Assembly: GCA_012841865.1 (NCBI GenBank) | Contig: DUTX01000008.1 | Span: 1 to 64,000 of the forward strand | Length of the DNA stretch: 64,000 bases | Source of the DNA: Acholeplasmataceae bacterium | Lineage (GTDB): Bacteria; Bacillota_I; Bacilli_A; ML615J-28; CAG-698 | Direction of reading: 5' to 3' | Shown: positions 25,763 to 47,165 of the stretch, piece after piece | Layout of the letters: each line of letters begins with the position of its first letter | Numbering within the stretch: the first letter of the stretch is position 1 | Notes under the pieces: generated by a model | The model's input: the letters and a program-made list of their open reading frames with translations, nothing else | Databases searched by the model: none | What the model was told of the DNA's origin: nothing | Made by a program: the position numbers and the translations under genes

Positions 25763-25795
25763 AAAGTAAGAAGCGACCTAAGGCCGCTTCATTTT
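25763..25795 (-). terminator. Terminator after the EF-G paralogue
   Basis: On minus GAAGCGGCCT-t-AGGTCGCTTC (25790-25770) is followed by a moderately T-rich tail (TTACTTTCTTT). Confidence 0.65.
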
Positions 25796-27845
25796 ATTTT
25801 TTGTATTCTTCAATAATTTTCTGTACTAAATGTTCGGGCACTTCTTCGTATCTTAAGAATTTACGGGTGAAAAGGCCGCTTGCTTGGGTCATCGCTTTTA
25901 AGTCAACCGCATATTTGGTAATTTCAGCTTCCGGCACTTCCGCAATAATCTCTTGATAGCCGTCTTTTTGTTCCATACCGAGAACGCGACCGCGTCTTTT
26001 CGTCATATCGCCCATAATATCTCCAACAAACTCATCTTTTACATAGACATTGACTTGCATAATCGGTTCTAAGATGGTGGGACGAAGTTTATCAAGGGCA
26101 TTTCTGAAAGCAAGGCCCGCAGCCAGTTTAAAGGAAATTTCATTGGAGTCAACCGGATGGTAACTTCCGTCATATAAAGTGGCTTTAATGCCAATGACAG
26201 GAAAGCCCGCAAGAGGTCCTTTTTCCATGGTTTCAATTAAACCTTTTTCAACGGCAGGGAAGTAGTTTTTCGGAACCGCACCGCCGACGATTACCTCTTC
26301 AAAAATGAAATCTTCTTCGCAAGGTTCGAAACGAATCCAAACATCACCGAATTGACCGGCTCCGCCCGATTGTTTCTTATGACGCCCTTGCGCTTCACCT
26401 TTGCTTCTGATAGTTTCGCGGTAAACGATTTTTTGGTCGCTGGTTTCGACTTCGACCTTAAACATATTCTTCATCCGTTCCAGGATATAACCGATATGGG
26501 TCATTCCGTGGCCACCGATTAAAAGCTGAGAGGTTTCCGGATTGCGTCTGATTTCAAAAGTATCATCTTCCAGTTTCAATCTTGCAAGCGAACCGGAAAG
26601 TTTATCTTCGTCTTGTTTATTTTTCGGATAAATTGCAATATAGATAATCGGAGTCGGATGTTCAACTTTCGGATATTGGATTGGATCTTTCTTATCCGAG
26701 AAAGTAATGGAATTCATTAATTCCGAAACCTTGGTGACAACAGCGATATCGCCTGCATAAACTGTGTCAACCGGTATTTGGGTTTTTCCGCGCATAACGA
26801 AAAGTTGCGGTAATTTTATGGTAACGTCGTTTTCACAGACATATACTTCTTGGCCGGTTTTCAACGCTCCCGAATAAAGTCTGAAAAACGAAAGTGAACC
26901 GACGAAAGGATCGATGATTGTCTTAAAGACAAATCCGGAAACAGGAAGATTAGCATCGGCTTCGCGGCTAACTTCGGCTTTGGTTTTCGGATGGATTCCG
27001 GCTTTGGCCCCAACTTGGGCGGGACTCGGAATATAATCCAGAATAGTATCTAAAACCGTACAAATACCGATATCAGTAGTGCTGGAAACGGTGACGATTG
27101 GGAAAAGGTCACCCGCCATCATTGCATTTCTTAAGCCTGAAGCAATTTCTTCACTTGTCAGTTCTTCACCGCTGAAATATTTTTCCAGCAATTCTTCCGA
27201 TGACTCCGCAACACTTTCCAACAAGTTGTCATAGAGTTCTTCGGCTCTTCCGGAAAGGTCACCAGGAACGGGAATCGCTTTACAATCCAAACCTTCATAA
27301 GCGCTTTTATTCAATACTTCAACCAAGCCGGTAAATTTATCTTGAGTTCCGAGCGGAAGTGTAAATTCGACCGCACGGTTGCTAAGTTTATCTTTAATTG
27401 AGGTAATCACATCATCATATTTGATGTTTTCTTTATCCATTTTATTGACAACAAAAATTGTCGGCAAATTGCGTTTTCTCAGTTCCATCCAAACTCTTTC
27501 GGTTCCGACTTCTACGCCTTTGGTAGCATCAACCAAAACAACGGCTCCGTCGGATACAGCCAAGACATTTTCAAGTTCTCCGATGAACTCTTCGGATCCG
27601 GGGGTATCTAAAAAGTTGATTTTCGAATCCTTCCATTCAACCGGAAGCATTGATGCGGTCAAAGTAGTCAAGCGGTGATGTTCTTCGGCGGTATAGTCAC
27701 CTACTGTATTTTTCTTCTCCACTTCTCCCTTTTTCTCGATTGCTTTCGAGACATAAAGGACAGATTCGCCGAAAGTGGTTTTTCCGCTACCCATGTGACC
27801 AACAATCGTAACATTTCGTATTGCGTTCGTATTATATAATTTCAT
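25794..27845 (-). CDS. Elongation factor G-like GTPase (EF-G paralogue)
   Basis: 683 residues, five-domain translational GTPase of the FusA2/EF-G-like group. G1 is GHMGSGKTT, the G3 DTPG lies in INFLDTPGSEEF and G4 is NKMD; the switch I region reads GDYTAEEHHRLTT where canonical EF-G has the RGITI motif, a sign that this is a paralogue and not the housekeeping translocase. Domains III-V follow (RNPETSQLLIGGHGMTH, GGAGQFGDVWIRFEP, HPVDSNEISFKLA). I start at ATG 27845 because GGAGG lies 6 bases upstream. The role of such paralogues (ribosome rescue, recycling or stress) is unsettled. Confidence 0.85.
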   Translation of the reverse strand: MKLYNTNAIRNVTIVGHMGSGKTTFGESVLYVSKAIEKKGEVEKKNTVGDYTAEEHHRLTTLTASMLPVEWKDSKINFLDTPGSEEFIGELENVLAVSDGAVVLVDATKGVEVGTERVWMELRKRNLPTIFVVNKMDKENIKYDDVITSIKDKLSNRAVEFTLPLGTQDKFTGLVEVLNKSAYEGLDCKAIPVPGDLSGRAEELYDNLLESVAESSEELLEKYFSGEELTSEEIASGLRNAMMAGDLFPIVTVSSTTDIGICTVLDTILDYIPSPAQVGAKAGIHPKTKAEVSREADANLPVSGFVFKTIIDPFVGSLSFFRLYSGALKTGQEVYVCENDVTIKLPQLFVMRGKTQIPVDTVYAGDIAVVTKVSELMNSITFSDKKDPIQYPKVEHPTPIIYIAIYPKNKQDEDKLSGSLARLKLEDDTFEIRRNPETSQLLIGGHGMTHIGYILERMKNMFKVEVETSDQKIVYRETIRSKGEAQGRHKKQSGGAGQFGDVWIRFEPCEEDFIFEEVIVGGAVPKNYFPAVEKGLIETMEKGPLAGFPVIGIKATLYDGSYHPVDSNEISFKLAAGLAFRNALDKLRPTILEPIMQVNVYVKDEFVGDIMGDMTKRRGRVLGMEQKDGYQEIIAEVPEAEITKYAVDLKAMTQASGLFTRKFLRYEEVPEHLVQKIIEEYKK

Positions 27846-27882
27846 CTTAAACCTCCTATAGCAAACGTTCACACTAATTGTT

Positions 27883-27910
27883 ATTATACTACATCTTCAT
27901 AAATTTTCAA
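27883..27910 (-). promoter_or_regulatory. Promoter of the EF-G paralogue
   Basis: On minus: TTGAAA (27910-27905), 16-base spacer, TATAAT (27888-27883). Confidence 0.7.
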
Positions 27911-27924
27911 AACACTTTTTTTAT

Positions 27925-30012
27925 TTATCCGCCGTAGCTGTATTCTTCCTTGGGATGGGTTTTCCAAAACACAGTATCGGAGAGTTCGAGCGGAATTTCA
28001 TAGTATTCTGCGTTGATTTCATAACCCGTAAGATCAATCATAATTTTAATCGTTCCGTTTCGATCGACAAAACGGTCGCTGACATTACATTTATAACTTT
28101 GGTCGCCCGACAAACTGCAACTATCGGAATCGCCCCCAACCAGCGCCAAAATTTTAATCCAAGAATCATAAGCATAGATTCGATTAATTGCCTCCCAGCT
28201 CGGATGGCCGTGTTTGTTTCCGAAATAATTGCCGTTGGTGATAATCACCACTTCCGGGTCAACAACTTCCAAAAACGGCGTACTGGTTCCAAATTTGGTT
28301 CCGTGATGCGCAGCTTTCAAAATATCGATGTCGCCGACTTCATACATATAATCTCTTTCCAGATTCGCATTTGTACCGTTATCGGCATCACCTGTGAAAA
28401 GCACCCGGGTTCCGTATGCTTCTAAAACAAAGACGATGCTCCGCGTATTGGGTTCGGAAGTTTTATAATTTTTTGTATCAATAATTTCAATAAAGACTTC
28501 ATCTAAAATATCAATGGTTTTTGTACAACCGTTTTGATTATTGACCGAATCAGTTACCGTACATTCCGTAATCAAGTCTTCATCATTAACTGCATTTACA
28601 TATTTTTCGTAAGTTTGGGTCGAATGGGTACCATAAAACTGAACGAGGTTCAAGATTTGATAGTTTTCAAAAACAAGGGGCATATTTCCGATATGATCGG
28701 CATCAGGGTGGGTCGCAAAGAGATAATCAATAACAAGGTCATTGCTGTTACTATCAATTACTTCTTTTATCGCCTGAAAAGAAGCAGAATGCTGTCCGGC
28801 ATCAATCAGTATATCGAAGTCTTCAATCTTAATGTAAATCGCTTCGCCGGGATCGCTATCTCCGTATTTGCCGATATCGATAAAAAATATTTCTACCGGA
28901 ACAACCATTTCCCCGCTTAAGACAATAATCTCATGAGCAGCGATTAGGGTTTCTGAAAATCCGGTAATGCTTGCGGTCAAAGTAACAACCGTGTTTTCAA
29001 AGACCTCGCTAACCAAACCAGCATTTGTGATTAAACCGGGAAAACTTGATTCCCAAGTAACAACCCCACCATAAGGCGTGCTCCACGGTAAAATAAAAGA
29101 TTCCTTAACCTTTTTGGGAACCAGCTTTTCAAACCCGGATAAAATATCTTGATTGTTTAAAAAGCGCTCGATTCGCAAATTATCGATTAAAATTGTTTTG
29201 TTGGATCTGTAATTCGTTTCAAAAGAAAAACGAACTCTGACCTTACCGGTAAATCCGGTAAGATCCAGTGTTTTCTGCTGCGTTTCATTTCCGTTATGGG
29301 AAATGGTTTCTAATAAGGTCCAACTGACGCCCTCGTTTGAGGAATAATAGATTTTAAGCGTTATCTGATAGCCTGATGTCGGAGCATTATCCACAAACGC
29401 ATAATTAAAACTAAGGGTTTTCGGATTTATTACATCCTTCTCCATTTCCATAATGCCTTTGGTTCCGATTTCCTTATCCGCATCGGCACTATTAGCATAG
29501 AGCCGGAGTTGTTGATTAAAAATATTTGCTTTTTTAAAAGCTAAGATTCCGCTTTTCCAAGGGTTGGTTGCTGTACCTTTAGTGATATTGTTGAAATCTT
29601 CATCAAGAAAAGTAAAGACTAAAGAATCATTTAAAGTAATCGCATAATTCTTACTGTCTTGATAATCATCACAGCTAACCTCTGCTTGTAAAGTTGCTTC
29701 GCCGTTTTTAATAAATTCTCCGGAATCGGAAATCAACTCGGGATTCAAGCTTTTCCAAGTAATACTTACATCCGGATAATGCGGAACTTCCGTAATTAAG
29801 CCGACATCAGTAACCGTGATTTCCGGAACATATAAATTTTCAATAACATAAGCTACTTTCTCTTCAGCTGTTATTTCCGGTGTAATTTCTACGTTGAATA
29901 AATCATTGAGGAAATCCAAAAACCCGCATCCGCTTAAAACAAGCGAAAGCATAAGCAAATGGATAATAATCAAAAATGAAGTCAGTTTTTTGTTTAATCG
30001 AGATATTTTCAT
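27925..30012 (-). CDS. Surface lipoprotein with Ig-like domains and a ComEC-like metallo-beta-lactamase domain
   Basis: 695 residues. The signal peptide ends in a lipobox (LVLSGC, Cys about residue 29), so it is anchored outside the membrane. Residues about 45-115 and 285-385 look like atrophied bacterial Ig domains (repeated ITWKSLNPELISDSGEF / VVTWESSFPGLITNAG). Between them lies a beta-rich, jelly-roll-like segment. The C-terminal about 300 residues are a metallo-beta-lactamase fold of the ComEC/Rec2 type: ATHPDADHIGN, FTGDADNGT and AAHHGTKFG carry metal ligands. Such stand-alone domains may be phosphodiesterases or nucleases; a role on extracellular DNA is inference. It follows the EF-G paralogue's promoter region and precedes no clear terminator. 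Confidence 0.8.
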   Translation of the reverse strand: MKISRLNKKLTSFLIIIHLLMLSLVLSGCGFLDFLNDLFNVEITPEITAEEKVAYVIENLYVPEITVTDVGLITEVPHYPDVSITWKSLNPELISDSGEFIKNGEATLQAEVSCDDYQDSKNYAITLNDSLVFTFLDEDFNNITKGTATNPWKSGILAFKKANIFNQQLRLYANSADADKEIGTKGIMEMEKDVINPKTLSFNYAFVDNAPTSGYQITLKIYYSSNEGVSWTLLETISHNGNETQQKTLDLTGFTGKVRVRFSFETNYRSNKTILIDNLRIERFLNNQDILSGFEKLVPKKVKESFILPWSTPYGGVVTWESSFPGLITNAGLVSEVFENTVVTLTASITGFSETLIAAHEIIVLSGEMVVPVEIFFIDIGKYGDSDPGEAIYIKIEDFDILIDAGQHSASFQAIKEVIDSNSNDLVIDYLFATHPDADHIGNMPLVFENYQILNLVQFYGTHSTQTYEKYVNAVNDEDLITECTVTDSVNNQNGCTKTIDILDEVFIEIIDTKNYKTSEPNTRSIVFVLEAYGTRVLFTGDADNGTNANLERDYMYEVGDIDILKAAHHGTKFGTSTPFLEVVDPEVVIITNGNYFGNKHGHPSWEAINRIYAYDSWIKILALVGGDSDSCSLSGDQSYKCNVSDRFVDRNGTIKIMIDLTGYEINAEYYEIPLELSDTVFWKTHPKEEYSYGG

Positions 30013-30025
30013 TTCCCCTCCGTTA

Positions 30026-30712
30026 TTAAATATGGAATCTTTTCTTCAGTTCTTCTTTGGTTTCCTTATCAGCAAACACAATCATTCCGACAATGGTTGC
30101 AAAGGATAAAGAAGCGGCAGCCAAACTCGGCCAGAGCACTATAACTAAATCAAACAGCCAGAGGACAAAAGGAATTAAACCTAAGATAGCGGCAGCAAGC
30201 AAGTACAAAAGGTATTCGCTGGAGCGCACTTTGCCGAGAAACATCGAAATTATAGCCAGGAGTGATGCCATCGAAAGAAAAGGAATGACATAATTTATTG
30301 ACCAACTTAAAGACCAACGCGAAACTCCGGTTACTAAATCGATACCGATTACATGTATTGAAAGTGTGACCATTTGAATCACAAGTCGCATCGGCACATT
30401 GCTTTTTGCTTTAAAAGTCGAACGAAGCAAAACCCAAAAATAAAGCACGCCGAGAACAACAATGATAGACCAGACTGTTCTTGTATTTTTATAAGTCAAA
30501 ATGTTAATCAAAACTGAAGTAAAGATAGCAATAATCGATAAGAATGCAACAATTCTCAGCAATACATTATATTTCTCCGGAATCGGAGTCGGCTTCGGAT
30601 ATTCTGGTCCTTGGTAGTTCTGACCGTCGACATCTTGAAGTATTTCAAAACAAAGCGGACAGGACTTTCTGGTCGTGTTATGAAGGACATTACATTTTAC
30701 GCACTTTTTCAT
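30026..30712 (-). CDS. DUF6320-like zinc-ribbon membrane protein
   Basis: 228 residues from ATG 30712, which follows GGAGGTGTAGG. An N-terminal zinc-ribbon CVKCNVLHNTTRKSCPLC (residues 4-21) is followed by a short Pro-rich linker and about six hydrophobic segments. This zinc ribbon plus membrane array next to an alcohol-acetyltransferase-type protein is the arrangement of the DUF6320 family. The function is unknown; it may hold the acyltransferase at the membrane or move its substrate. The start is 1 base past the acyltransferase stop, so the two are coupled. Confidence 0.75.
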   Translation of the reverse strand: MKKCVKCNVLHNTTRKSCPLCFEILQDVDGQNYQGPEYPKPTPIPEKYNVLLRIVAFLSIIAIFTSVLINILTYKNTRTVWSIIVVLGVLYFWVLLRSTFKAKSNVPMRLVIQMVTLSIHVIGIDLVTGVSRWSLSWSINYVIPFLSMASLLAIISMFLGKVRSSEYLLYLLAAAILGLIPFVLWLFDLVIVLWPSLAAASLSFATIVGMIVFADKETKEELKKRFHI

Positions 30713-30713
30713 C

Positions 30714-31976
30714 CTACACCTCCAACTCATTGGTTTCAACAATTACTTCAATCCCAAAATTAGCTAACATCCGGAAGAATTCTCTTTGGAGATCGCGTTC
30801 ACGGATTGCTCCCACAAAGGTGATTTGCATGCGGTCGCGATAACTAATGCCACCGATATTGATGGGAGAGGTTTTCGAAGCACCATTGGTGAAGATGAAT
30901 TTTCTGACATATGGTTCCATACCTTTCGGTATTTTTACAACCCCGATATTTGAAAACGTCATCGTGTTTAATTTATCGCCCCAAGCACTGTAACCGATTT
31001 TTAAAACCAACTCCTTAATAACCAAGGGAACAATCCTTAAGAAGAAATTCTTTTCGATCATTACATTCGCAACAATCCGTTCTTGGAGCTTTTCTTTCTG
31101 AAGTTCACTTTGAAAGACGGCTTTGACTACTTCCAAAACTGCTTCAAATTCCAAGTCTTCTTGCAGCTTCATTCCCGCCGAAATAAATAAAGAGAAATTT
31201 CTAAGCGTCCGCGAAGGAAAGTATTTCCTTAAGTTTACGGGAATAAAAATTTGAAGCGGTTTGTCTTTGGATCTAAAAAGATGGTTTAAATCTTTTGCGG
31301 AGCAAATCAAACAAGCCGTTAAAAATTCGGTGATGGTTGCGGAAAATTTATGGGCAACTTCTTTTAACGCTTTTACGCTGACTTCGCCCGTTACGATTGA
31401 CAAATAAAGATCATCGTAAAAACTCCCCCGAAACTGCATGGCTTTCGGATCTCTTTTATTATTTTTTAAAGATGGTTTGTAATTTTTAACGAAACTGTCT
31501 TGATATTCTTCATAAACATTTTCAATATCGGAGGTTAAGACCAGATTCTCGCTGTCAATTTTTTTTCCGGTTAAAATCAAATAATTATAGACAACCGCTT
31601 TCAAAAATTCCAAAGCTCCGGAACCGTCAGTCAAAGAATGAAACACTTCCAAGTTTATCCGCGTGGAATGATAACTCACTTTAAATAAGTAACCATTATT
31701 TTCTTTTCGTTTTAAACGTTGGCAGATATGCGGACTTTCCGGATAAACTTTTGCTTTTGCGAAATTCTCTTCCAAGTAGTACCAAAAAAGGCCTCTCTTC
31801 ATTTTCACCTTCATTGGCGGAAAACGTATTATCGTGATATTTAAAGCTTCTTCAAGCAGCTTGGGTTCGACTTCTTCCGTAAGAACAACAGAAAGCCGAA
31901 AAACATTGGTCCGCTTATCGGATGTTACCGAAGGAAATATTTTTGCTGCGTTGTCAAGTTTATACCAATTATTCAT
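30714..31976 (-). CDS. Alcohol acetyltransferase-like / condensation-fold acyltransferase
   Basis: 420 residues with the chloramphenicol-acetyltransferase/condensation-like fold. The HxxxD motif is HSLTDGSG near residue 133, and the second structural block is MTFSNIGVVKIP near 345, where the DFG-like element sits in relatives. The family (AATase, Pfam) acylates alcohols, and bacterial relatives with DUF6320 partners are thought to act in lipid or polyketide-like conjugate formation. It is the first gene of a two-gene operon behind a leader RNA that carries a terminator. Confidence 0.75.
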   Translation of the reverse strand: MNNWYKLDNAAKIFPSVTSDKRTNVFRLSVVLTEEVEPKLLEEALNITIIRFPPMKVKMKRGLFWYYLEENFAKAKVYPESPHICQRLKRKENNGYLFKVSYHSTRINLEVFHSLTDGSGALEFLKAVVYNYLILTGKKIDSENLVLTSDIENVYEEYQDSFVKNYKPSLKNNKRDPKAMQFRGSFYDDLYLSIVTGEVSVKALKEVAHKFSATITEFLTACLICSAKDLNHLFRSKDKPLQIFIPVNLRKYFPSRTLRNFSLFISAGMKLQEDLEFEAVLEVVKAVFQSELQKEKLQERIVANVMIEKNFFLRIVPLVIKELVLKIGYSAWGDKLNTMTFSNIGVVKIPKGMEPYVRKFIFTNGASKTSPINIGGISYRDRMQITFVGAIRERDLQREFFRMLANFGIEVIVETNELEV

Positions 31977-32044
31977 AATTCACCTGCTTTGACACTCCAA
32001 ATTTAACCTTCCCGCACATATAACAAGGATTTTCAAATAAAGAA
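31977..32044 (-). other. Leader between terminator hairpin and acyltransferase start
   Basis: A 68-base segment follows the leader terminator and contains the RBS AGGTG before the ATG. I see no convincing second promoter here, so transcription of the acyltransferase operon likely depends on read-through of the hairpin. Confidence 0.5.
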
Positions 32045-32160
32045 AGAAAAAAGTGCCGCTCTGCACTTTCCGCGAAATTTGGCTTAAAAATTTATAAATA
32101 TTTAGCCATAATATTTAACGGTAAGCACCTTTTTCCAAAATATAAATTAGCGTCATCATA
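32045..32160 (-). ncRNA. Leader RNA with intrinsic terminator, possible attenuator or riboswitch
   Basis: A transcript starting near 32159 would run about 110 bases to the terminator AAGTGC-agagcg-GCACTT plus T-run (32068-32045). Earlier in the leader AAAAAGGUGC (32134-32125) is fully complementary, over 10 bases with one G-U, to the 3' arm plus T-run GCACUUUUUU, so it can form a competing anti-terminator. A second hairpin GGCUAAAUAUUU...AAGCC lies between (32105-32081). No known riboswitch class is recognised. A short reading frame of 14 codons (MMTLIYILEKGAYR) begins at the predicted start site without an RBS. Confidence 0.5.
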
Positions 32161-32165
32161 GTATT

Positions 32166-32194
32166 ATTATACATTAAAAGATTGATTATCACAA
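32166..32194 (-). promoter_or_regulatory. Promoter of the acyltransferase leader
   Basis: On minus: TTGTGA (32194-32189), 17-base spacer, TATAAT (32171-32166). Confidence 0.75.
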
Positions 32195-32254
32195 GAAAAA
32201 GAAATGTATATCAAAAATCAAAATGACATTTTTTGTTTTACTTTTTTAAGTAAA

Positions 32255-32286: not shown

Positions 32287-33138
32287 CTATTTTTTAACCA
32301 TATAGAGAATACCGATTGTCCGCGGCCCACAATGAGTCGAGATAACCGCACTCGCTTTTGTTTCGTGAATTTGTATAGGATTTAGAACCTTCGCTATTTC
32401 TCTTTTCAAATAAGCGGCGTCCTCTTTGGCTAAATTATGGGTTACCATAATATTATCAAGGTCTACCTTTTCCGCATCAGAGCGAAGATAATCCACCAAA
32501 GTATCCAATGCTTTTTGAAATTTTCCACGTGGTTTTTTTGTAACAACCATCTTCCCGTCAACAACCCTGATAATCGGTTTGATTTTCAAAAGCGTTCCGA
32601 TGATTCTGGAAGTGCCGCTGCATCTGCCCCCTTTATGTAAGTAAGAAAGCGTATTGATAGCGAACTGAGTCCTAACCAGAGAAACATCAGCCTCAACTTT
32701 GCGGGCGATAGTTTCCAAGTCAGCGCCTTGATTACGATATTGAGCGGCTTTTAATAACAAGAGACCGATTCCGCTGGAAAGATTTCCTGAATCAACAAGT
32801 CTAATTCTTCCTTCCGGAAATTCGCTTGCTGCAATGCGAGCATTCTGAAAAGCAGCCGAAAAACCGGATCCGATCCCGAGGTAAAGAATATCTTTACCGG
32901 CATCAAGATATTTTTTGAAATAAGCAGTAAATGTAGCCGGAGGGATTGCGGAAGTTTTCGGCAATTCTCCGTGTTCCTTAACCAATTGGTATAATTGTTC
33001 TGCGTTTATTTCTATAACATCGGCATAGGATTTCCCGCCAATATTAACATACAATGGTATTATATCAATATCGTGTTTTTCATAAAGTTCCGGTGTCAGA
33101 TCGCTTGTACAATCCGTTATAATTTTAATCCCATTCAT
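32287..33138 (-). CDS. DegV family fatty-acid-binding protein
   Basis: 283 residues, cytosolic DegV/FakB fold. Seen are KIITDCTSDLTPELYEK, KTSAIPPATF (the TS motif that binds the fatty-acid head group), DSGNLSSGIGLL and THCGPRTIGILY at the C-terminus. FakB-type proteins present fatty acids to the FakA kinase for phospholipid synthesis. No fakA lies in the window. It is a single-gene unit with a good promoter and a terminator. Confidence 0.9.
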   Translation of the reverse strand: MNGIKIITDCTSDLTPELYEKHDIDIIPLYVNIGGKSYADVIEINAEQLYQLVKEHGELPKTSAIPPATFTAYFKKYLDAGKDILYLGIGSGFSAAFQNARIAASEFPEGRIRLVDSGNLSSGIGLLLLKAAQYRNQGADLETIARKVEADVSLVRTQFAINTLSYLHKGGRCSGTSRIIGTLLKIKPIIRVVDGKMVVTKKPRGKFQKALDTLVDYLRSDAEKVDLDNIMVTHNLAKEDAAYLKREIAKVLNPIQIHETKASAVISTHCGPRTIGILYMVKK

Positions 33139-36004: not shown

Positions 36005-36039
36005 AAAAATGCCATGTTTAAAAATACTTAAACAATGGC
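36005..36039 (-). terminator. Riboswitch expression-platform terminator
   Basis: On minus GCCATTGTTTAA ... TTAAACATGGC is followed by ATTTTTT. Its 5' arm is the 3' end of the aptamer (TTGCC-ATTG), so folding of the aptamer and of the terminator compete. Confidence 0.75.
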
Positions 36040-36103
36040 AACTGGCTGTCTTTAGTATAAGACCCTATAGCTTTCCGTCACAAGATCACTCTTGTTTTGG
36101 CTT
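36034..36103 (-). ncRNA. Cyclic di-GMP-I (GEMM) riboswitch candidate
   Basis: On minus the order of conserved elements is GCCAAAA, a hairpin CAAGA-GUGA-UCUUG closed by a GNRA tetraloop, GACGGAAAGC, UAUAGGGUCU, a short second hairpin (GUCUU/AAGAC), then GCCAGUUGCC. This is the GEMM-I plan: GGCAAA, GNRA-capped stem, GACGCAAAGCYAYAGGGYCU, GCCAGRUUGCC. One change, GCCAA where GGCAA is usual, puts a mismatch in the closing P1 stem opposite UUGCC. A consensus promoter lies 16 bases upstream and a terminator is built onto its 3' end, so it is placed as a working switch. No GGDEF or EAL protein is in the window. Confidence 0.6.
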
Positions 36104-36118
36104 TTTCATCTTTTTTGT

Positions 36119-36236: not shown

Positions 36237-36314
36237 TGGTCGGGATAATGCGATTTGAACGCACGACCTCTTGCTCCCGAAGCAAGCGCTCTAACCAAGC
36301 TGAGCTACATCCCG
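36237..36314 (-). tRNA. tRNA-Pro (anticodon CGG)
   Basis: A 78-base cloverleaf with encoded CCA: acceptor CGGGATG/TATCCCG, D stem GCTC/GAGC, anticodon stem CTTGC/GCAAG around loop TTCGGGA (anticodon CGG, reading CCG), T stem GTGCG/CGCAT with loop TTCAAAT, discriminator A. All stems pair, with G-T only at the end of the acceptor and T stems. Confidence 0.95.
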
Positions 36315-36336
36315 ATAAAATAGCCTAAAAATTAAA

Positions 36337-36411
36337 TGGCGCGCCTAGCAGGAATTGAACCTGCAACTAGGGCTTCGGAGTCCCTCATAATATCCATTTT
36401 ACTATAGGCGC
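36337..36411 (-). tRNA. tRNA-Arg (anticodon CCG)
   Basis: A 75-base cloverleaf with encoded CCA: acceptor GCGCCTA/TAGGCGC, D stem GTAA/TTAT, anticodon arm AGGGA-CTCCGAA-GCCCT (anticodon CCG, reading CGG; the pair next to the loop is an A-G mismatch), T stem GCAGG/CCTGC with loop TTCAATT, discriminator G. First of two tRNAs in one operon. Confidence 0.93.
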
Positions 36412-46890: not shown

Positions 46891-47165
46891 ATAAAAAAAA
46901 TCCCGTCCTCTAAAAGGACGAGATAATATTCCCGCGGTACCACCTTTTTTCGTTATAATATCACTATTATAACCTCTTCGAGTACAATCATACTCTATCG
47001 CTGTAACGTGCGAACACGTCTTGATTTTACGAAACGCTCAACCAAGCAACTCCGAGGCCATCTTCGCCAAATTCAGTATTATTCCCTCACACCTACCGGA
47101 ACTCTCTGTGAATACTTCCTTTTGGTTACTCTTCTCTTCACCGTCTTTATTTGTATCTATATATG
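46891..47165 (-). promoter_or_regulatory. T-box riboswitch (methionine specifier) of metNIQ
   Basis: The minus strand shows the T-box plan: Stem I with GAAGAGAAGAGUA and distal-loop AGAGAGUUCCGGUAGGUG, a specifier-side strand GGCGAAG-AUG-GCCUCGGAG with AUG as the probable codon, a Stem II/III region, the antiterminator AAAGGUGGUACCGCGGG (46949-46932), and a terminator CUCGUCC/GGACGGG with T-run (46922-46893). Uncharged tRNA-Met would stabilise the antiterminator and switch on the importer. The Met assignment fits the downstream genes. Confidence 0.9.

Follow-up and report, generated by a model that had tools for sequence, protein, structure and literature searches.

A short leader lies between a promoter and an acyltransferase gene in this Acholeplasmataceae bacterium, and it carries a predicted intrinsic terminator, which raises the question of whether the leader RNA controls expression of the genes that follow. 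The locus occupies the minus strand of the window (the whole stretch of 64,000 nucleotides that was analysed), between the terminator (32277-32259, minus strand) of a DegV/FakB-like gene (32287-33138) and the acyltransferase gene (30714-31976, minus strand), which reaches the cut-off of the Pfam AATase model. The leader terminator is about 70 bases from the start of the acyltransferase gene, and the AGGTG ribosome-binding site of this gene (31981-31985, minus strand) is found in the same position in congeners. The gene for a DUF6320 protein (30026-30742, minus strand, as listed among the open frames) overlaps the end of the acyltransferase gene. It is followed after 13 bases, without an intervening terminator, by a gene for an MBL-fold lipoprotein-like protein (27925-30012, minus strand), which judging by this spacing is probably co-transcribed with the other two.

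The promoter (TTGTGA-17-TATAAT, 32166-32194, minus strand) matches the consensus at 10 of 12 positions and is kept, up to the start site, in two congeners, G001 and G002. To place the start site, we used 214 strong intergenic promoters from three genomes of the genus, which were collected by a consensus scan and are not mapped starts. The seventh base after the -10 element is a purine in 156 of these 214 promoters (A in 104 and G in 52). Because of this preference, transcription is predicted to start on the A of an ATG at 32159 (minus strand), which begins after six bases from the -10 element.

The leader was folded as an RNA of 117 nucleotides numbered from 32159. Its terminator hairpin, GGAAAGTGC-AGAGCG-GCACTTTTT (32048-32071, minus strand), is followed by a T-rich tail. 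The 3' arm of the hairpin and the T-run (nucleotides 103-115, 32045-32057, minus strand) also form the 3' strand of a competing anti-terminator helix, whose 5' strand comprises nucleotides 24-36 (32124-32136, minus strand) and pairs with 32057-32045 with probabilities of 0.71-0.99. In the minimum-energy fold this helix consists of 13 pairs, three of them G-U, and encloses two inner stems (32070-32121, minus strand). An earlier note on this DNA had reported a promoter with a terminator downstream, and both are real. It had also reported a complementarity of 10 positions (32134-32125). The competitor that it recognized is genuine but longer, joining 32136-32124 with 32057-32045.

The antiterminated state is predicted to be the more stable of the two, at -24.0 versus -19.2 kcal/mol. 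Folds of the growing transcript, which are equilibrium folds whose figures do not cover co-transcriptional kinetics, give the terminator a probability of 0.27-0.35 for a brief interval at lengths 110-112. From length 116 on (116-132) this value is 0.01, and the long helix rises to 0.98. Even at lengths 100-106, where the 3' arm of the terminator is incomplete, the early segment already pairs with the 5' arm. The balance is reversed when the early segment is made unavailable. Masking nucleotides 1-30 raises the terminator probability to 0.74, and masking 9-39 or 28-60, the latter being the bases that a ribosome at the stop codon of the short frame described below would cover, raises it to 1.0, with no effect from masking 1-16. 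Folds in both states and the masking tests support the mutually exclusive terminator and anti-terminator proposed in the earlier note.

Comparison with other terminators indicates that the competing helix is clearly, if not overwhelmingly, beyond chance. Two null sets were assembled, one with 63 intergenic terminator-like hairpins from the same genome (364,225 bases) and the other with 199 from three congeneric genomes (1,075,801 bases, or 1.08 Mb). Both sets are imperfect in that some intergenic hairpins are lost to the masking of open reading frames of at least 90 codons, which was applied to both strands. One hairpin outside the 199 is the leader terminator of G002, most likely filtered because an antisense frame overlaps it, and it was evaluated separately. 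Paired with the 100 bases upstream, the 3' arm gives a duplex that is second of 63 in energy, and 4 of the 63 terminators, this leader included, have an equal or better longest run of pairs. When the 90 bases before each hairpin were included in the fold, 2 of 63 in the same genome fell below a terminator probability of 0.1, and the leader terminator was the only one of those two to return above 0.7 with the first 60 bases masked. In the genus set 3 of 199 were suppressed (P<0.1), and the one that was also released (P>0.7) with the upstream part masked was again the leader terminator. Dinucleotide shuffling of the upstream RNA gave a duplex as strong as the real one in 0 or 16 of 2000 trials, according to where the arm was cut. 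None of these fractions can be read as a clean p-value, since the site had been chosen beforehand for this very property. The stability of the leader as a whole is ordinary (z -1.50, with 14 of 200 shuffles as good). A near-switch hairpin was also seen elsewhere in the same genome (L097:4672-4686, plus strand), with a terminator probability of 0.10 that becomes 0.91 with the upstream part masked.

The ATG at the predicted start site opens a leaderless frame of 14 codons (32115-32159, minus strand), as had been claimed beforehand, which reads MMTLIYILEKGAYR and ends with a stop codon at 32117-32115 (nucleotides 43-45). The frame (nucleotides 1-45) overlies the anti-terminator strand, the masking of which flips the fold. 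Inspection by eye of MMTLIYILEKGAYR revealed no run of a single amino acid, no run of sensing residues, no clear stalling motif and no RLR. No codon-level conservation of the frame was seen in the comparison with the two congeners. In G002, independently, an ATG at the same +1 offset begins a frame of 19 codons, again in a leader that has a terminator, and the two leader peptides are barely alike. In G001 the ATG lies one base earlier and is in frame with the acyltransferase.

Among the promoters of the genus, ATG is over-represented at the predicted +1. Of the 30 genus promoters with AT at the predicted +1, 12 continue with G, and at the other offsets from 0 to 19 the ATG share ranges from 0/32 to 9/26 (0-35%). 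The 12 cases include two orthologues of the acyltransferase leader and three of one other gene, and grouping by similar sequence past the start leaves about nine of the 12 as independent. The enrichment is therefore weaker than it appears, because five of the 12 are mutually orthologous. We consider the excess no more than suggestive of translation of the 14-codon frame. In the Mollicute Mesoplasma florum, start sites exactly on start codons have been reported (PMC7745072). Apparently orthologous promoters with ATG at +1 are present in all three genomes of the genus at a different gene (L111 10932, minus strand; L128 13675, plus strand; L149 18236, plus strand). Each is followed 21-26 bases on by a second ATG, with a GGAGA or GGGAGA site between the two. 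This arrangement makes the three promoters a possible further instance of a leaderless mini-frame lying immediately 5' of a gene.

The promoter, the position of the start site, the hairpin, the competing helix and the flip upon masking are given by computation or by the sequence. As in attenuators generally, the promoter is upstream and the gene downstream of the terminator on the same strand, and the competitor exceeds chance. From these features we infer translation of the frame, a ribosome as the occupant and the direction of control. In the model that we tentatively favour, at less than even confidence, the acyltransferase-DUF6320 operon is under a genus-restricted and fast-evolving transcription attenuator, with a translating ribosome as the simplest occupant. 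Transcription would start at or beside the A of the ATG at 32159. In the naked nascent RNA, nucleotides 24-36 would base-pair with the T-run and the 3' arm of the hairpin, permitting read-through into the acyltransferase gene. An occupant resting on nucleotides ~24-46 while the polymerase makes nucleotides 90-115 would free the terminator, and the transcript would be shortened. The simplest such occupant would be a ribosome that has begun on the 5'-terminal ATG and has reached the stop codon. Efficient translation of the leader would then mean OFF, and the operon would be ON where translation fails to occur, is delayed or stalls very early.

Support for this attenuator model comes from the retained promoter, the unique suppression and release among 199 terminators, the excess of ATG at +1, and the combination of ATG, frame and suppressed terminator in G002. 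Weighing against it are a switch that is not conserved, the failure of both masking and geometry in G002, the missing stalling motif and the dissimilar peptides. The acyltransferases of G001 and G002 are 81.4% (342/420) and 76.7% (322/420) identical to that of the window. G001 has no leader hairpin, and its leader of ~66 bases runs straight to the acyltransferase gene. The stretch before the G001 start codon resembles, by eye, the region of the anti-terminator strand in the window, and there is a hint from the sequence that G001 may have lost the hairpin when the segment separating two AGGTG sites was deleted. The promoter of G002 is followed by about 240 bases, which past the start site cannot be aligned with the leader of the window.

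The G002 leader has a terminator of its own, AAAGTGCT..AGCACTTT, located 118-89 bases before the gene. Its 3' arm can also pair upstream, and the stem has a probability of 0.01-0.32 in the full leader, depending on the 3' end. When the leader is cut 5' at nucleotide 36, 45 or 80 the stem reaches up to 0.68, and with the cut at nucleotide 60 it reaches 0.87-0.98. The competitor duplex is weaker than in the window and no better than chance (550 of 2000 shuffles reach it). Masking the end of the G002 frame hardly shifts the terminator (0.17 to 0.24), and this frame ends well short of the competitor strand. Thus, on the folding models the frame seems to fit the role of controller in the genome of the window alone, with the geometry in G002 against it.

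A search of 150 relatives at the DNA level found homology of the locus limited to the promoter part. The matches cover query positions 6-51 in G001 and 1-61 in G002, and the others are short and low-scoring. A search of genome contigs returned only the same two congeners and one distant relative. Of 56 listed places where the acyltransferase occurs, we read the upstream regions of 30. A leader terminator is present in 2 of these 30 orthologous regions, those of the window and G002, and in none beyond the genus. Hairpins at L005 and L010 were rejected as leader terminators because they lie directly after the stop of the upstream gene, as was one at L002, which is located before the promoter.

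Such rapid turnover is the reason that an unregulated leader is nearly as likely as the attenuator, and we regard it as a serious contender that is itself somewhat improbable. The promoter would be real and the terminator a weak and leaky one acquired in the lineage, with a helix that is fortuitous or that just lowers its efficiency, and nothing would be sensed. This reading accommodates the complete replacement of the leader sequence within the genus next to a promoter that persists, the ability of G001 to do without any hairpin, the 28 of 30 orthologous upstream regions that have no leader terminator, and the ordinary stability of the overall fold. It does not readily explain why suppression followed by release is observed in 1 of 199 terminators, nor why the terminators of both species that have one are unusually suppressed in full-leader folds.

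The earlier note had left control to a ligand, a protein or leader translation. Of these, translation best fits the geometry, in the genome of the window and not in G002, and a conserved ligand riboswitch finds little favour. Firmicutes riboswitches that use intrinsic terminators form alternative anti-terminator and terminator folds in the 5' leader. A new riboswitch, or a protein acting on 32136-32045, might work similarly here with the two inner stems as binding domain, since stems closed by the anti-terminator helix amount to an aptamer-like layout, one that is ON by default. Unlike those riboswitches, the RNA has no conserved aptamer and no match in Rfam. As the earlier note had anticipated, it corresponds to no known riboswitch class, with no match at gathering score either here or at the loci of the congeners, and the weak matches (up to E 10) are all below gathering. 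In a riboswitch leader it is normally the binding core that is conserved best, and neither congener shares any conserved leader sequence. A second copy or repeated element is likewise absent from the genome, where the best other match (E 0.086) spans 17 bases. A ligand riboswitch is made less likely by the lack of an Rfam match, a second copy and a conserved core, and we judge a ligand or protein switch improbable. The earlier note had named a lack of covarying pairs in orthologous leaders as a result that would refute its reading, and this is largely the result obtained. Because G001 is without the hairpin and the leader of G002 cannot be aligned, there is no conserved aptamer, no set of pairs conserved across the congeners and no covariation that could be claimed. 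Non-conserved leaders are evidence against a conserved ligand riboswitch and leave a lineage-specific attenuator standing.

Least likely of all, and quite doubtful, is a small RNA gene of ~115 nucleotides with the operon transcribed from elsewhere or by read-through, for which promoter and terminator do bound a compact unit and which has a parallel in the attenuated leader rnTrpL of Sinorhizobium meliloti, reported to be able to act as a small RNA (PMC7298713), but the same promoter in G001 feeds the acyltransferase gene directly through a ~66-nucleotide leader, no promoter with at least 10 matches lies between terminator and gene on the same strand, and a 9/12 promoter at 31995-31968 overlaps the start codon.

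Several described systems resemble the attenuator that we favour. The rli80-hflXr leader of Listeria monocytogenes, for which ribosome-dependent attenuation is reported, combines a terminator, a competing anti-terminator and a 14-aa ORF whose translation decides the outcome (PMC6310831). In Listeria the ORF is placed over an anti-anti-terminator and has an RLR macrolide motif, expression is switched ON by antibiotic-bound ribosomes, and the gene controlled encodes a ribosome-splitting factor (PMC6310831). The frame in the window instead covers the anti-terminator strand itself, lacks RLR and precedes an acyltransferase operon. The trpL (rnTrpL) RNA of S. meliloti is similar in that it opens at its very 5' end with the ATG that starts an ORF of 14 aa, and downstream of this come structures that exclude one another and a terminator (PMC7298713). 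Attenuators of the trp type sense consecutive Trp codons, and the one in S. meliloti controls trpE(G) (PMC7298713). The present frame has no repeated sensing codon, and its target is not amino-acid biosynthesis. Mycobacterial leaderless cysteine uORFs are also short frames with a 5'-terminal ATG that attenuate downstream genes, but are described as acting on downstream translation through contiguous Cys codons (PMC9031893); the present leader has an intrinsic terminator and no Cys codons. In the open-licence papers searched we found none that names DUF6320 and none that combines alcohol acetyltransferase with Acholeplasma, and the titles retrieved for Acholeplasma with leaderless starts or riboswitches were not about this leader.

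If the switch works, the Acholeplasmatales would have a leaderless leader-peptide attenuator acting on an operon with a DUF6320 member, and a single genus would be seen to acquire, rewrite and lose attenuators with the promoter staying in place. A broader and rather unlikely extension is that the genus uses leaderless mini-frames at +1 as translation sensors, in which a ribosome on the 5'-terminal ATG displaces the anti-terminator. Were this true, genes for lipid-type acylation would be off with efficient leaderless initiation and on when initiation fails, and a leader whose sequence is replaced, although two of three species keep the promoter, the +1 ATG and a terminator, would bear the mark of selection on the logic and not on the sequence. 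If the switch does not work, the locus cautions that two competing folds, however convincing in a single genome, may lack conserved function.

Other features of the region deserve mention. A AATGTCATT inverted repeat (32222-32230, minus strand) lies 5' of the promoter in the window and in G001, with AATGTCAT in G002. On present sequence comparisons it might be an operator or a piece of an upstream terminator. The MBL-fold lipoprotein-like gene, which sits between the DUF6320 gene and an EF-G-like gene, has a bacterial Ig domain and is missing at the corresponding place in G001. The EF-G-like gene (25794-27872), considered as a further operon member on account of its translation theme, was excluded, since an 11/12 promoter of its own precedes it (27883-27910, minus strand), also present in G001. 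Its leader is similar in the two genomes (L069 8430-8480), which contrasts with the acyltransferase leader. A T-box leader (RF00230, above Rfam gathering score) is found elsewhere in the window, at 46911-47150 on the minus strand, and none is recognized at the acyltransferase leader. Finally, a c-di-GMP-I riboswitch aptamer (36034-36111, minus strand), also above the gathering score, adjoins two tRNA genes (36240-36411).
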